Positions 17,285-45,828 of a stretch of DNA of 64,000 nucleotides are shown here, piece by piece. Within the stretch, counting starts at the first letter, position 1. The number at the start of each line of letters is the position of its first letter. The notes below the pieces were generated by a model. That model was not told where the DNA came from, ran no database searches, and saw only the letters and a program-made list of their open reading frames with translations. A program made the translations under genes and the position numbers. This stretch comes from Paenibacillus polysaccharolyticus (GTDB lineage Bacteria; Bacillota; Bacilli; Paenibacillales; Paenibacillaceae). The stretch is taken from contig NZ_FMVM01000002.1 of the NCBI RefSeq assembly GCF_900102085.1, forward strand, positions 1 through 64,000, read 5' to 3'.

Positions 17285-18529
17285 GTGAAGCTGCTTCGGG
17301 ATTTGCCGAGAAATCCGCGGTATTCCATTTTACTAGAACCGGTGTGGGCCATTCCGGGAACGATTGTTTTGTTTTACGCTCCTTTGTATATGAAAGAGGC
17401 CGGTTTGTCCGACATTGAGATAGGCATCATTAATTCGGTGAATCTGTATTTTGCCTTCATTTTTCAACTATTTGCAGGGTCAGTGACTAATAAGCTGGGA
17501 CGTAAACGAACGACACTGATCTTTGATTTACTCGCCTGGAGTGTACCCATGTTCATCTGGGCATTTTCACAAAATTTCTGGCTGTTTCTCATGGCTTATT
17601 TGCTTAATGCGACATCAAAGTTTGTCACGGTGTCTTTCAATTGTCTGATCATTGAAGACGTAGAAGAACATAAACGATCCAAGGTGTTCGCCATGCTGAA
17701 TATGATTATTACCGGTGCGGGAGTGCTTACACCGATTGCGGGAGTTGTGATTGCAGACTTTGGCATCGCGCCTACGCTAGCAAGCATTTATTTTGTGGGC
17801 GGGCTGCTGATGACAGCGATGTTTTTTATTCGTAATCGCTACACGGAAGAGACTGAGGTTGGCAAGGAATTGATGGGCATACACAGCAAAACGCATGTAT
17901 TTCGCAGCCTCGTCACCAGCCTTCGTCTGTTTGGAAGGTCGTTCTACAAGCGCAGGTTATTTCCGATCATTTTAATTACTGTATTGTCTAATCTGGTTCT
18001 GCAGTTAAATTTCTTTCAGGTCATCTATTTTAAGGAGCAGTTAAGCTTTGGTGATCGAGTGATCTCATTTGTTCCCGTCGTGACAGCGGTTACCGTCATG
18101 CTGCTCTATCTGGTTATTCTTCCGCGCTTGAAGCAGAGATCGGAAGAGAAGTATGTTAGCTTCTCCATTGTGCTCAGTACCGCGGGTGCTGTGTTATTTC
18201 TTCTGATTCCGGCCGGTAATATAGCGATGCTGTTCCTTACCCTTATTGTACTTGCTGCCGGGAACTTCATTCTGCAAACGTACCGTGATTCATTACTGAT
18301 GAACCGACTGGGCACACATGAGAAGGCGGACATGTTCTCGGCTGTACAGACGGTTATGACGTTAACAGCAATACCTTCCGGGTATCTAACCGGGTTGCTG
18401 TATCATTATCATCCGGTCCTTCTGTTCGGCGTTATTCTTGCACTGTATATTTTCTTGATGATTATTATGTTGTTTTTACATGATCCACCGCAACGCCCCC
18501 AAGTGATGGGATCTTACAAAAATATGTAG
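17285..18529 (+). CDS. MFS transporter (probable exporter)
   Basis: 414 aa, GTG start, about 12 membrane segments in two halves with a cytoplasmic loop around residues 195-225. The motif A-like GSVTNKLGRKRTTLIFD follows TM2. The two-half layout and lack of sugar-porter motifs fit a drug or metabolite efflux type MFS. It lies 33 bp after the dehydrogenase and ends the operon. As last gene behind three biosynthetic enzymes, it may export their product or confer self-protection (inference). Confidence 0.85.
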   Translation: MKLLRDLPRNPRYSILLEPVWAIPGTIVLFYAPLYMKEAGLSDIEIGIINSVNLYFAFIFQLFAGSVTNKLGRKRTTLIFDLLAWSVPMFIWAFSQNFWLFLMAYLLNATSKFVTVSFNCLIIEDVEEHKRSKVFAMLNMIITGAGVLTPIAGVVIADFGIAPTLASIYFVGGLLMTAMFFIRNRYTEETEVGKELMGIHSKTHVFRSLVTSLRLFGRSFYKRRLFPIILITVLSNLVLQLNFFQVIYFKEQLSFGDRVISFVPVVTAVTVMLLYLVILPRLKQRSEEKYVSFSIVLSTAGAVLFLLIPAGNIAMLFLTLIVLAAGNFILQTYRDSLLMNRLGTHEKADMFSAVQTVMTLTAIPSGYLTGLLYHYHPVLLFGVILALYIFLMIIMLFLHDPPQRPQVMGSYKNM

Positions 18530-18603
18530 AAGAAGGGCTTTTCTGTATGTTGCCGAATATATAAAACGGTAAAATGCAGTTAATATATATTTTGAGCTAT
18601 TCA

Positions 18604-18753
18604 TTTACACTTGAACGGAGAGGACAGAAAAAACCTGAAAAAGTGGAACGGTCGCCTTTATCACGGGATTTTAACTTTATTAATAGTAAACAAAAAAATC
18701 TGGGGATAACAGCGATTGTAAGGTTATTCTGTCATCGGAGTGGCTTGTGTAAA
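18604..18753 (+). repeat. 150-bp imperfect hairpin repeat, copy 1
   Basis: Begins TTTACAC and ends GTGTAAA. Inside, GGAGAGGACAGAA near the left end faces TTCTGTCATCGGAGTG near the right end, and TATCACGGGATTTT faces AAAATCTGGGGATAACAGCGATT. So the whole element can fold into one long interrupted hairpin. A second copy lies at 44745-44892, with strong identity over both arms but a different apical loop that can still pair. No protein is encoded: the 66-codon frame across it is not conserved in copy 2. It may be a MITE-like mobile repeat or a structured RNA. Confidence 0.8.
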
Positions 18754-18796
18754 GTCTTAGTTCAATTTATATAGCACAATCCTTGGGAGGTTTTGA

Positions 18797-19390
18797 ATGA
18801 TGAATGTAATGACAACGGAAGCAAGGGAGAAAATGAGCTGGATCAATGAGCCGCACAACTGGTCATATACGGATCAAGGTGGACTGATCATAGAGGCACA
18901 AGCCGACTCGGATTTTTTCCAAGACCCGGCAGGCAAGCATATTCGAGCGACCGCACCGTTCTTGTCGATGTCCGTGGCTGGTGATTTCGAAATGACTGCA
19001 CAGCTGACGGTAGAGATGAAGCATCAATATGATTCCGGTTGTTTGATGGTGATGGTCGACGAACGTAACTGGTGCAAACTGTGTTTTGAATATGATGGTA
19101 AGGCCGCAACGATCGTATCTGTTGTTACACGCGATGGTTCATCCGATGATTGTAACTCGACAGAGGTGCCTGTGTCAGATCCTTACCTGCGTATACGAAA
19201 AGTGGAGGGATGTCTGTCCTTCTTTTACTCTCCCGATGGGGAAGAATGGAAGTTAATTCGATACTTTGGCATGCCGATGGATGGAGAGCTTCGAGCTGGA
19301 GTTGTTGCTCAGTCACCGACCGGCACGGGTTGCACTTGTCACTTTTTATCCGTAAGCATGACCCAGCCGGATTTGACTGCACGCTTCTGA
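18797..19390 (+). CDS. DUF1349 family protein (concanavalin-like fold)
   Basis: 197 aa. Matches the DUF1349/regulation-of-enolase-1 family: SWINEPHNWSYTDQGGLIIEAQADSDFFQDPAG, DSGCLMVMVDERNWCKLCFEYDG, SFFYSPDGEEWKLIRYFGMP. This is a beta-sandwich of the concanavalin A-like class. Biochemical role unknown; such proteins occur near carbohydrate genes. No signal peptide. GGAGG lies at the right distance from ATG 18797. A HAD phosphatase follows 40 bp downstream, probably in the same transcript. Confidence 0.8.
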   Translation: MMNVMTTEAREKMSWINEPHNWSYTDQGGLIIEAQADSDFFQDPAGKHIRATAPFLSMSVAGDFEMTAQLTVEMKHQYDSGCLMVMVDERNWCKLCFEYDGKAATIVSVVTRDGSSDDCNSTEVPVSDPYLRIRKVEGCLSFFYSPDGEEWKLIRYFGMPMDGELRAGVVAQSPTGTGCTCHFLSVSMTQPDLTARF

Positions 19391-42468: not shown

Positions 42469-43344
42469 ATGGGCGTACCTACTTTTCTCGAAACAGGTCA
42501 CATGGCCGAAGGGTTTCCCATTCGGTTAATTTATACAGGTGCAGAATTCAATTATGCGGCACATTGGCATGATGAAGTGGAACTTGTTATCGTGACTGGA
42601 AAACATGCACGGATCGGTGTAAATGAGCAAATTTTTGAACTGAACCAAGGGGATATGGTTCTAATCAAGCCGGGGGACGTGCATTATTTTATGCCAGGCA
42701 CCGGAAGGCTGACGATTTTGCTGTTTCGGCTTGAATTGTTAACCGGGAGCTTTACGAGTGAAGCGGAGATGCAAGAGCTGGGAACACTTTTGAATCAAAC
42801 GTCCATCATTCCGTCGGGCAGTCAGTCCAACCCGGGTCCTTATATTGATGCGATTGCCGTGGAGAAAACAAATCAGAAACCCGGTTACCGCTGGATTATG
42901 GTATCTCGGTTATATGATCTAATCGTCTTGTTACTACGTACCACACCCCCGGCTTCACAAACGGATTCGTCGCCATGCTGGCCTTGCGTATCTTCCAAGA
43001 AGTTCGAGTTTCTCGAATCCGTATGCGAGTATTTGGAAGAGCACTATGCCGAGCCGATTAAGCTGGAGCAGGTGGCAGAACATATGAAGTTCAGTAAGTT
43101 CCATATCTGCAAACTATTCAAAGAAATCAAGGGCATCACGTTAATGGAATATTTGAATCATTTTCGCATTATTAAGTCGGAGTGGGCGCTTTTGTTTCGT
43201 CAGGAATCCATTTTGGAGATTGCGATCAGTCACGGATTCAACAATGTGAACTCCTATAATCGTCTTTTTAAAAAATACAATAACTGCACGCCGTCCGAAT
43301 TTCGCAAACGTCATCGTTCCAATATCGCAAAATATCAAGGATGA
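42469..43344 (+). CDS. AraC-family regulator with cupin sensor
   Basis: 291 aa. N-terminal AraC-type cupin (FNYAAHWHDEVELVIVTGKHARIGVNEQIFELNQGDMVLIKPGDVHYF, residues 25-75) and C-terminal double HTH (IKLEQVAEHMKFSKFHICKLFKEIKGITLMEYLNHFRI, then ILEIAISHGFNNVNSYNRLFKKYNNCTPSEFRK). AGGAGG lies before ATG 42469. It stands directly upstream of a sugar ABC operon on the same strand and probably activates it in response to the transported sugar. Confidence 0.88.
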   Translation: MGVPTFLETGHMAEGFPIRLIYTGAEFNYAAHWHDEVELVIVTGKHARIGVNEQIFELNQGDMVLIKPGDVHYFMPGTGRLTILLFRLELLTGSFTSEAEMQELGTLLNQTSIIPSGSQSNPGPYIDAIAVEKTNQKPGYRWIMVSRLYDLIVLLLRTTPPASQTDSSPCWPCVSSKKFEFLESVCEYLEEHYAEPIKLEQVAEHMKFSKFHICKLFKEIKGITLMEYLNHFRIIKSEWALLFRQESILEIAISHGFNNVNSYNRLFKKYNNCTPSEFRKRHRSNIAKYQG

Positions 43345-43396
43345 TTGACAATATTTGTGGAGAAAGGAACCGCTCAAATTCTTATACTCAAATAAA

Positions 43397-43411
43397 TTGT
43401 AAGCGTTTCCT
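43397..43411 (+). promoter_or_regulatory. CcpA catabolite-responsive element (cre)
   Basis: TTGTAAGCGTTTCCT matches the relaxed cre consensus WTGNAANCGNWNNCW at every defined position. It lies 20 bp before the start of the sugar-binding protein gene, downstream of any promoter, where CcpA would act as roadblock. Confidence 0.65.
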
Positions 43412-43430
43412 TTTCAGGGAGGGTACTTTT

Positions 43431-44708
43431 ATGAAGAGATGGTTTAAGCGGTTTGTTGTACCGGTCACGCTGCTTGCAAGTTCAGTACTCTTGCTCGTCG
43501 GTTGTCAGACAGGTGCATCCAATCAAGCGAAGCAACAGGAGATTACGGTCTGGAGTTTTACGGATGAGGCAGGCTATGCGATTGAGAAATTCGAAGAGAA
43601 GTATCCAGATATCAAAGTGAATTTCGTTAATATTCCAGGCAACTTTTACCTGACCAAGCTCAAATCAGCACTTCAGACCAGTTCCAAAGCACCCGACGTG
43701 TTTATGATTGAAAATGCAAATATTCGGGAACTTATTGATGTACCATATTTAGAGAATTTATCAGCTGCACCATACAATGCAAACGAGTTAATTAAGGAGC
43801 AGTACCCTTTTGTTCAGGCTAATGAGCAGGATAGTGAGGGGAACGTTCGCGCCATTGGATATCAGGGTACACCTGGTGGCATCTATTATCGCCGTGATCT
43901 GGCGAAGGAATATCTGGGTACCGATGATCCAGAGAAAGTCAGCGCCCAGATTGATACATGGGAGAAGATTTTTGCTATCGGAGAAAAGGTACAAGAACAA
44001 AGTGGCAACAAGGTACATGCACTGGCGAACTGGAACGGGATAGCCAACTCGTACGGTGGCATTCCTTGGGTGAAAGATGGGAAGCTCGTCATTGATCCTA
44101 CGTATATGAAGGTGCTTGATCTGGTGCGTGAGGCAAGGGAGCGCCGTGTACTTGGTGAGTACGAGGATGGAAGTGCAGGGTATGCAGCGTCCATGCAAAA
44201 AGGTGAAGTGATGTTCTATCCTGCGGCGACTTGGGGATTGCAGTTTACATTCAAAGCAAACGCACCCGATACCGAAGGGTTATGGGGTTTGGCACACGGG
44301 CCTTCGTCCTTCAGTTCAGGAGGGACTTACATCGCGATGTATAACAAGAGTGATCAGAAGGATGCCGCCTGGAAATTCATTGAATTTTACAACTTTAATC
44401 ACGAATTTCTGACGGGACTTGCCAAGGAGCAGGATTACTTTACGAGTAACATGGTCGTGAATGACCAGCTTGCAGACTCGCTGACTTCAGCCTATCTGGG
44501 TGGACAAAAGCATTTTGAATTTTTCTCAGAGGCCGCCAAGCAGGTTCCGGTGTATGAACGCACTAAATATGACGGTATCATCAGCAATGATATCTATCGA
44601 AACTTGCTACAGTTGTATCTGAACGGCGATATTCAGACGAAGGAAGAAGTGGTAAAACGCATCAAACGTGACGTGCGTCTAAGGTTCCCAGAATTAGAGG
44701 TAGAGTAA
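43431..44708 (+). CDS. Sugar ABC transporter substrate-binding lipoprotein (family 1)
   Basis: 425 aa. Signal peptide with basic MKRWFKRF, hydrophobic core and lipobox LLVGC (about C23). The mature protein has QEITVWSFTDEAGYAIEKFEEKYPDIKVNFVNIPG, the family 1 (MalE-like) signature, and SKAPDVFMIEN. ATG 43431 has GGGAGG upstream; the longer frame from 43341 runs over the cre site. It belongs to a CUT1 importer with the two permeases downstream. The AraC gene and the cre site fit an inducible, glucose-repressed oligosaccharide system. Confidence 0.9.
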   Translation: MKRWFKRFVVPVTLLASSVLLLVGCQTGASNQAKQQEITVWSFTDEAGYAIEKFEEKYPDIKVNFVNIPGNFYLTKLKSALQTSSKAPDVFMIENANIRELIDVPYLENLSAAPYNANELIKEQYPFVQANEQDSEGNVRAIGYQGTPGGIYYRRDLAKEYLGTDDPEKVSAQIDTWEKIFAIGEKVQEQSGNKVHALANWNGIANSYGGIPWVKDGKLVIDPTYMKVLDLVREARERRVLGEYEDGSAGYAASMQKGEVMFYPAATWGLQFTFKANAPDTEGLWGLAHGPSSFSSGGTYIAMYNKSDQKDAAWKFIEFYNFNHEFLTGLAKEQDYFTSNMVVNDQLADSLTSAYLGGQKHFEFFSEAAKQVPVYERTKYDGIISNDIYRNLLQLYLNGDIQTKEEVVKRIKRDVRLRFPELEVE

Positions 44709-44744
44709 GTTTACTACTCCAGAACCTAGGAAGTTAACTAAGTG

Positions 44745-44892
44745 TTTACACAAACAACGGAGAGGACAGAAGAAAGCTGGAAAAGCGAAGCGGTCGTTTT
44801 TATCACTGGATTTTCTCCTTTAAAAAGGGATCAGAAAAATCCGGGGATAACAGCGATTGAAAGACTCTTCTGTCATCGGAGTGCTTGTGTAA
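44745..44892 (+). repeat. 148-bp imperfect hairpin repeat, copy 2
   Basis: Same element as 18604-18753: TTTACAC at the left end, GGAGAGGACAGAA, TATCACTGGATTTT, then AAAATCCGGGGATAACAGCGATTG, TTCTGTCATCGGAGTG and CTTGTGTAA. The apical segment (CTCCTTT...AAAGGGA) differs from copy 1 but again can pair. It lies between the sugar-binding protein and the first permease and is therefore transcribed as part of the operon. Confidence 0.8.
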
Positions 44893-44937
44893 CCATCGTA
44901 GTTCGCTTTAGGTCAATTATTGATTGGGGGACAGCGT

Positions 44938-45828
44938 ATGTTTGCCAAAACAATTCGAAAAGACCATTACGGGTACTACTTTATCGCTCCTTTTTTTATC
45001 GTGTTTGCCATCTTTGGACTGTATCCGATTCTCTACTCGCTATATATCAGTTTCACGAATTTCGATGGGATCACCACGCCTGAGTTCGTCGGGATCGGTA
45101 ACTATGTCGCGGTGCTTCAAGACCCGCTGTTCTACAAAACATTGTTTAATACACTCTTCATTTGGGGGGTATCGGTAGTACCACAACTGACGGTCTCCCT
45201 TGTACTTGCTTTTATTTTGAACGACAAGTTGTTAAAAGGACGGGATATTTTCCGGGCGGTATATTTCTTCCCTAACATCGTTACGGCTGCTTCGCTCGGT
45301 TTGCTTGTCAGTCTGATCTTTGATTGGCAGTCGGGTGGACTGAATCATTTTCTCGTGCAGACAGGGTTAATTCAAGACCCGATCAATTGGAAAGATGATC
45401 CTTGGTTTATGCGGCTGATCGTGTCATCCATTCTGTTCTTCCAGTACTTTGGTTATTCAATGGTCATCTATCTGGCTGGATTACAAGGGATAGATCCAGC
45501 GCTGCAAGAAGCTGCACAAATCGATGGTGCCAAGAAAAAACATATTTTCCTGCACATCATCGTGCCGATGCTCAAACCCATTATATTATTTCAGATTATT
45601 ACCTCGATCATTGGGGGCATTCAGATTTTTGACCAGCCGTTTACGTTGACCAATGGTACAGGAGGGCCGGACCGTGCGGCAATGACCAGCATCATGTACC
45701 TATATAATGTAGCGTTCCAAAGTACACGTTTTGGTTATGGAGCTGCCATTGCATTTTGTCTGTTCATCATTATTATTCTGTTATCGGTTGCATCCTTCAT
45801 CATGACCAAACGGAAGAGCCGTTCATAG
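44938..45828 (+). CDS. Sugar ABC transporter permease, MalF/UgpA type
   Basis: 296 aa, six membrane segments. YYFIAPFFIVFAIFGLYPILYSLYISFTNFDG at the N-terminus is typical of CUT1 permeases. The EAA motif is seen in IDPALQEAAQIDGAKKKHIFLHIIVPMLKP. ATG 44938 has GGGGGA 7 nt upstream; the TTG at 44920 is unlikely. Separated from its binding-protein gene by the hairpin repeat. Confidence 0.9.
   Translation: MFAKTIRKDHYGYYFIAPFFIVFAIFGLYPILYSLYISFTNFDGITTPEFVGIGNYVAVLQDPLFYKTLFNTLFIWGVSVVPQLTVSLVLAFILNDKLLKGRDIFRAVYFFPNIVTAASLGLLVSLIFDWQSGGLNHFLVQTGLIQDPINWKDDPWFMRLIVSSILFFQYFGYSMVIYLAGLQGIDPALQEAAQIDGAKKKHIFLHIIVPMLKPIILFQIITSIIGGIQIFDQPFTLTNGTGGPDRAAMTSIMYLYNVAFQSTRFGYGAAIAFCLFIIIILLSVASFIMTKRKSRS

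Follow-up and report, generated by a model that had tools for sequence, protein, structure and literature searches.

The palindromic ERIC elements occur in longer forms that arise by insertion at fixed internal places, and the BOX elements of Streptococcus pneumoniae are modular, with middle modules that vary among copies. PMC2229807 describes ERIC as a 127 bp intergenic repeat that is co-transcribed with its neighbours and has an orientation-dependent effect in Yersinia, together with the inverted-repeat NEMIS or Correia elements of Neisseria, in which the stem-loop, once transcribed, is a proposed target of RNase III. For Bacillus cereus, a second source reports that bcr1−bcr3 are MITE-like and often located in UTRs and operon spacers, that bcr10 and bcr18 have conserved structures, that about half of the bcr copies lie inside mRNAs (84 of 165 and 62 of 155 in two strains), and that bcr3 correlates with mRNA half-life (PMC3446304).

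The repeat analysed here has two copies in the window, by which we mean the whole stretch of 64,000 nucleotides of Paenibacillus polysaccharolyticus DNA under study. It is dispersed, mobile now or in the past, conserved and strand-specific in its fold and sense-oriented in this genus. It is like ERIC in its similar scale and its intergenic location, a likeness of description and not of alignment, and unlike ERIC in its hosts, in that a consistent TA duplication was not seen, and in a covarying core that is kept where the ends are mostly unrecognisable. With bcr1−bcr18 of the Bacillus cereus group it shares the character of a Gram-positive interspersed repeat, again by description and not by sequence, whereas the present element by itself combines a covarying RNA-like core with mobility of the MITE kind. 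NEMIS, which come in two sizes of 107 and 155 bp, belong to another host and have another sequence, and where the middle modules of BOX vary, the present repeat gains or loses one 39-bp arm within a covarying hairpin. We regard it as probably a mobile, non-coding structured repeat of Paenibacillaceae that is embedded in mRNA, folds strand-specifically and works like ERIC or bcr elements, a resemblance in kind.

A literature search, with most subscription journals outside its reach, found no description of the repeat among the papers listed. Rfam 15 gave no match at the curated cut-off, neither in the window nor in ten additional loci, of which eight are from other genera, and a search around copy 1 at E values up to 5 returned a single unrelated weak hit. 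This absence of a match rules out a known RNA family, an identity that the sequence-only reading had left to be checked.

That reading had placed a hairpin of roughly 150 bp at two positions of the window, and its coordinates were right (Table 1). Both copies share TTTACAC...GTGTAA and most of both arms, and their apical segments differ and yet pair each with itself, as had been claimed. Each copy does fold as a hairpin, with z scores of −4.9 for copy 1 and −5.7 for copy 2 against dinucleotide shuffles, of which none in 200 folded as well. The proposed extent is that of the hairpin and not of the element, the ends of which lie about 20 bp further out. The outer inverted repeats are degenerate at the left end of copy 1 and at both ends of copy 2. 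The claim that the copies share no protein reading was followed through the ORF list only, where a spurious-looking ORF overlaps copy 2. Both right arms also carry GGGGATAACAG (18698−18711 and 44840−44853), which we take to resemble a conserved 23S rRNA stretch, a resemblance that could be due to chance.

Table 1. Position of the two repeat copies, their parts and their neighbouring genes in the window.
Feature	Position	Strand	Remarks
Copy 1, short form	18584..18774	+	genes either side both +; covariance model 121.3 bits, E 8e-33 (copy is a training row)
Left terminal inverted repeat, copy 1	18584..18599	+	degenerate version of consensus TATATAAGTTGAACTA
Right terminal inverted repeat, copy 1	18758..18774	+	TAGTTCAATTTATATAG, 1 mismatch
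Hairpin as first described, copy 1	18604..18753	+	TTTACAC (18604−18610) to GTGTAAA (18747−18753)
Helix GACAGAA (18623−18629) / TTCTGTC (18727−18733), copy 1	18623..18733	+	one of the helices with compensatory changes
Inner helix TCGC..TTATC / GATAA..GCGA around apical hairpin, copy 1	18652..18715	+	most conserved part across genera
MFS transporter gene, upstream of copy 1	17285..18529	+	
DUF1349 gene, downstream of copy 1	18797..19390	+	
Copy 2, short form, degenerate outer ends	44726..44914	+	genes either side both +; covariance model 120.4 bits, E 1.5e-32 (copy is a training row)
Hairpin as first described, copy 2	44745..44892	+	
Solute-binding-protein gene, upstream of copy 2	43341..44708	+	
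ABC permease gene, downstream of copy 2	about 44938..45828	+	

The repeat had been introduced as a feature of two copies, which falls far short of its abundance: a 30-base piece of the core, allowed up to three mismatches, hits 86 places in the host genome, and a pattern specific for the extra arm of a long form matches 26 places, with no hits for the reversed core or the long-form control. BLAST with copy 1 returned at least 44 matches in this genome, 40 of 155 candidates being scored. Core places number 28 in the relative G019 and 126 in the relative G023, where the controls were likewise zero. For the analysis of gene context we used 100 host copies with at least 700 bp of flank after removal of duplicates (a recount gave 102, of which two were short-flanked).

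Aligned in one orientation, the copies define a near-palindromic, dispersed repeat with the inverted repeat TATATAAGTTGAACTA ... TAGTTCAACTTATATA at its ends. Terminal TATATAAGTTGAACTA occurs at both ends, with up to four mismatches, in 54 of the 98 core-bearing host copies, which thus carry the terminal repeats of a MITE; from end to end these 54 measure 189−196 bp in the short form and 229−235 bp in the long form. The long form has an extra arm of about 39 bp at one internal point, with an 8-bp hairpin of its own (AGCTTTCT...AGAAAGCT). Internal-deletion derivatives of about 72 bp (L095, L096, L102 and L103) and of 38 bp (L106) consist of both ends and little else. The join in L102 and L103 lies at a short CGGAG motif, or a variant of it, that each arm contains, a junction expected from slippage across the hairpin. 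An element of about 390 bp (L097:347−737 and L159, C23 about 307346−307736 of the host genome) has the same ends and first inner bases around a different inner palindrome and may represent a further subfamily that this machinery also mobilises. The 39-bp arm, for its part, may exist outside the repeat, since the match on a Paenibacillus cellulosilyticus plasmid (NZ_CP054613.1:434424−434470) is confined to 47 bp around it.

A family-wide search with one copy as query detected the core in 127 of 295 genomes, spread over 11 of 19 genera, with 40 of these genomes belonging to the host's genus and 87 to ten others. Outside the family, 23 genomes from elsewhere in the order gave no match. Most of those matches listed from outside the genus cover the core alone (about 32−139 of the 192 query positions). 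An exact 29-base scan of species genomes gave at least 80 named records, all of them Paenibacillus among the matches listed. Forty loci from five other genera were fetched for a comparison of ends, alignment and orientation. Both ends are recognisable with 1−3 mismatches at three of them (L483 and L490 of genus g34, L501 of genus g29), so the end repeats are not private to the host's genus; at two further loci (L479 and L485) the ends are weakly recognisable, and at the rest they are unrecognisable.

Selection on structure had been suggested from the two window copies, and it is borne out by compensatory change at three levels, namely among copies, among orthologues at one site and across genera. 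The first level was assessed on 73 short-form copies, comprising 54 of the 56 full-length host copies, both window copies among them, and 19 of 28 from relatives. Under a structure of 34 pairs, 98.1 % of their cells are paired, versus 36−52 % when one side is slid by 1−3 columns, and double changes affect 15 pairs and 32 cells, numbers that compare with shuffled means of 2.0 and 2.2 and were reached in none of 500 shuffles.

The second level is the spacer between dgkA and cdd, genes named from their Pfam hits to diacylglycerol kinase and cytidine deaminase. Thirty loci, the host's included, were read out of 60 genomes searched; L215 lacks the element, L190 has its right half only, and the others hold it in the same orientation. 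The alignment contained 24 orthologues with one copy each, the long forms L189, L210 and L213, the host array, L190 and L215 being omitted. Here 96.0 % of the cells are paired versus 36−50 % after sliding. Compensation affects seven pairs and 26 cells, which none of 500 shuffles reached, and a measure of further pair types fell short of significance (65 of 500). At a single site, copies that exchange sequence could also give the impression of covariation in place. Six rows (L191−L194, L197 and L200) replace two Watson−Crick pairs by an apparent tandem G-A/A-G mismatch between GAG and CAG, which was scored as unpaired in this count.

Across six genera, 35 sequences were aligned, made up of 30 of the 40 other-genus loci from five genera and five host copies (ten near-duplicates omitted, among them L500, which has a diverged left arm). 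Paired cells amount to 95.1 % versus 35−50 % after sliding, and double changes are found in 20 of 34 pairs and 134 cells, where shuffling gave means of 12.7 and 35.1, none of 500 shuffles as high, and the slid controls gave 12−26 compensatory cells. Invariant letters stand within this covarying fold. A covariance model built from the cross-genus alignment finds both window copies with E about 1e-32, both being training rows.

The pairs also tell the strands apart. With one predominantly G-U pair set aside, the consensus pairs as read on the top strand include 36 G-T versus 8 A-C cells, and the corresponding numbers across genera at commonly Watson−Crick pairs are 27 and 13. G>A is the commoner change in unpaired columns (4.7 % versus 2.9 % for C>T) and C>T in paired ones (3.8 % versus 2.1 % for G>A), and because of these opposite trends mutational bias is not the cause of the G-T excess. 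Two pairs are G-U or G-C and never A-C in the 35 sequences, apart from two A-U at one of them. Since G-U outnumbers A-C, the top strand is the constrained one, and the selected fold, as read from these alignments, is that of the top strand, either as RNA or as single-stranded DNA; a top-strand DNA hairpin would likewise be expected to hold G-T in place of A-C.

Mobility was followed by comparing the corresponding stretches from the relatives G066, G072 and G019 with one 235-kb contig of the host genome. Many orthologous sites are occupied in every genome comparable, but several hold the repeat in some genomes and lack it in others, with a clean empty form in at least one relative at three sites (sites 0, 1 and 5). 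A duplication of 5−6 bp accompanies the insertion at site 1, where G066 looks empty but resembles a deletion scar, and none is present at sites 0 and 5. At sites 0−4 one species has the short form and another the long form, and because these five sites differ in form between species, the 39-bp arm was gained, lost or exchanged in place. With some orthologous sites of relatives empty or holding the other form, the repeat is or formerly was mobile. Orientation is retained in 36 of 38 orthologous genome pairs, and the two exceptions concern one site, inverted in place in G066 (C73 about 118362−118537, i.e. L238:18362−18537, against C28:70616−70795 of the host). A fixed-size target duplication was not found over 54 copies, the 2-bp signal in the TATATA end amounting to 35 versus 30 expected. 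Thus the repeat has the end repeats and the mobility of a MITE, fails on fixed target duplication as tested, and fits the earlier description as MITE-like in its anatomy and its occupied and empty sites.

An autonomous element with matching ends was not found in ten host loci around unpaired or widely spaced ends, a subset of the unpaired matches with up to two mismatches; these loci hold remnants, deletions or other genes, and inspection by eye recognised no transposase-like ORF inside an end pair 1.7 kb apart (L108). Among 60 genomes of the genus, 25 gave no Y1_Tnp match, and several of these 25 are rich in first-look repeat candidates (e.g. G008, G022, G033, G066, G072 and G079), and this rules out a REP/RAYT system as a present need. 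Carriage by phage was rejected as well, since a phage match was not found and two exact 24-base patterns hit nothing among viral contigs, as was carriage by plasmids, for which the one record matches nothing beyond the 47 bp around the extra arm.

Such anatomy could be that of a purely selfish MITE, whose hairpin would matter as DNA for transposition, folded as a single strand or cruciform, with no role as RNA, and whose orientation would be the remainder after harmful insertions were purged. The terminal inverted repeats, shared with three of the 40 loci in two other genera, the near-palindromic form, the short derivatives that retain both ends and the contrast of occupied and empty orthologous sites all agree with this, the top-strand bias could be an effect on single-stranded DNA, and the 40 other-genus loci show no orientation bias. 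We nevertheless consider this explanation rather unlikely. The core is retained without recognisable ends at 37 of the 40 other-genus loci, two or three of these with weak similarity, and the dgkA−cdd pairs are kept by compensation while the flanking genes are about 82−88 % and 77−89 % identical to those of the host, where a dead insertion should decay. The candidate-rich genomes without a Y1 transposase match further argue that no REP-type tyrosine transposase is needed now.

Orientation was scored with the top strand as sense against ORFs that were called mechanically, not annotated, in two counts and at three ORF cut-offs. Among 75 host copies in same-direction spacers, 68 run with the genes and seven against them (range 67−69 versus 6−7, p about 1e-13), and the remaining spacers are divergent for 15−16 copies and convergent for 8−9. 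G019 has 18 with and three against among 28 copies, and G023 has 17 with and three against among the 30 loci read of its 126 places. No such bias was seen at the 40 other-genus loci, with 11−13 with, 7−8 against, 11−13 convergent and 5−7 divergent, depending on the ORF cut-off. Part of the bias could follow replication. In a hand tally against sampled GC skew, the leading strand carries 21 of 28 copies in G019 and 71 of the 100 listed for G023, with one copy in the former and seven in the latter near a switch point. The replication fork is disfavoured as the whole cause, for the bias relative to genes (102 with versus 12 against, from 67/6, 18/3 and 17/3) exceeds these leading-strand proportions. 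Where genes and fork conflict, four copies follow the genes and one the fork by hand count. Genes therefore appear to be the main cause of the orientation, the leading-strand bias being weaker, with a handful of copies separating the two.

Fold, strand and orientation point to an action as RNA here, while transcription and function of the repeat are inferred. For an effect on neighbouring mRNA that depends on orientation, as with ERIC, the orientation bias is suggestive only. According to the reading as an mRNA-embedded mobile repeat, the element would spread as a non-autonomous mobile element with machinery supplied elsewhere, and copies in co-directional spacers would be transcribed within the mRNA. 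The transcribed top strand would form a long hairpin there, which may change how stable the neighbouring messages are or how they are processed or translated, an influence that ERIC and bcr3 also seem to have. A spacer hairpin that protects the upstream message is known from malE−malF of other bacteria, and the spacer hairpin of copy 2 could set unequal expression of the solute-binding-protein gene and the permease gene.

The sense orientation, the invariant letters in the covarying fold and the position of the next ORF start, at a median of 39.5 bp downstream in the 82 host copies whose downstream gene points the same way, would also suit a cis-regulatory leader RNA, such as a riboswitch, an attenuator or a protein-binding leader, that acts on the downstream gene and was spread by duplication. 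We regard this as improbable, as a terminator-like hairpin was not found in the stretch examined around copy 1, the neighbours of three annotated sites are unrelated, and convergent spacers hold copies too. A family of trans-acting small RNA genes with their own promoters would explain the strongly conserved fold and is very improbable given a copy number high for such RNA, the sense orientation with both neighbours and the fact that the only two promoter-like sites around copy 1, not far above the 0.8 expected by chance, are on the opposite strand.

Beyond the mRNA-embedded repeat that we favour, a wider reading is possible, which we put forward tentatively. The repeat would then be a family-wide mobile structured RNA, whose core of about 135 nt persists in several genera while the outer stems change, the ends are mostly changed and the 39-bp arm is swapped between copies, and it would have been seeded by the hundred into operon spacers as a standard module for mRNA processing or stability, or would have an RNA role in its own spread. 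Its distinctive features are the covarying core in several genera, mostly without recognisable ends of this kind, and the exchangeable arm. If the RNA-level reading is true, a structured RNA outside Rfam would sit at about 100 places per genome in operon spacers of Paenibacillus and its relatives, where it would matter for expression engineering and for the annotation of RNA-seq data. The old question whether interspersed repeats are kept for their action as RNA or for moving alone is thereby made testable.

The dgkA−cdd spacer provides one orthologous site that has retained the element across many species. In the host genome about four units are arranged there in tandem, spaced by about 221 bp (L098:1−1701, C15:25700−27400); the series is full-length in the related G066 and much shortened in G072.
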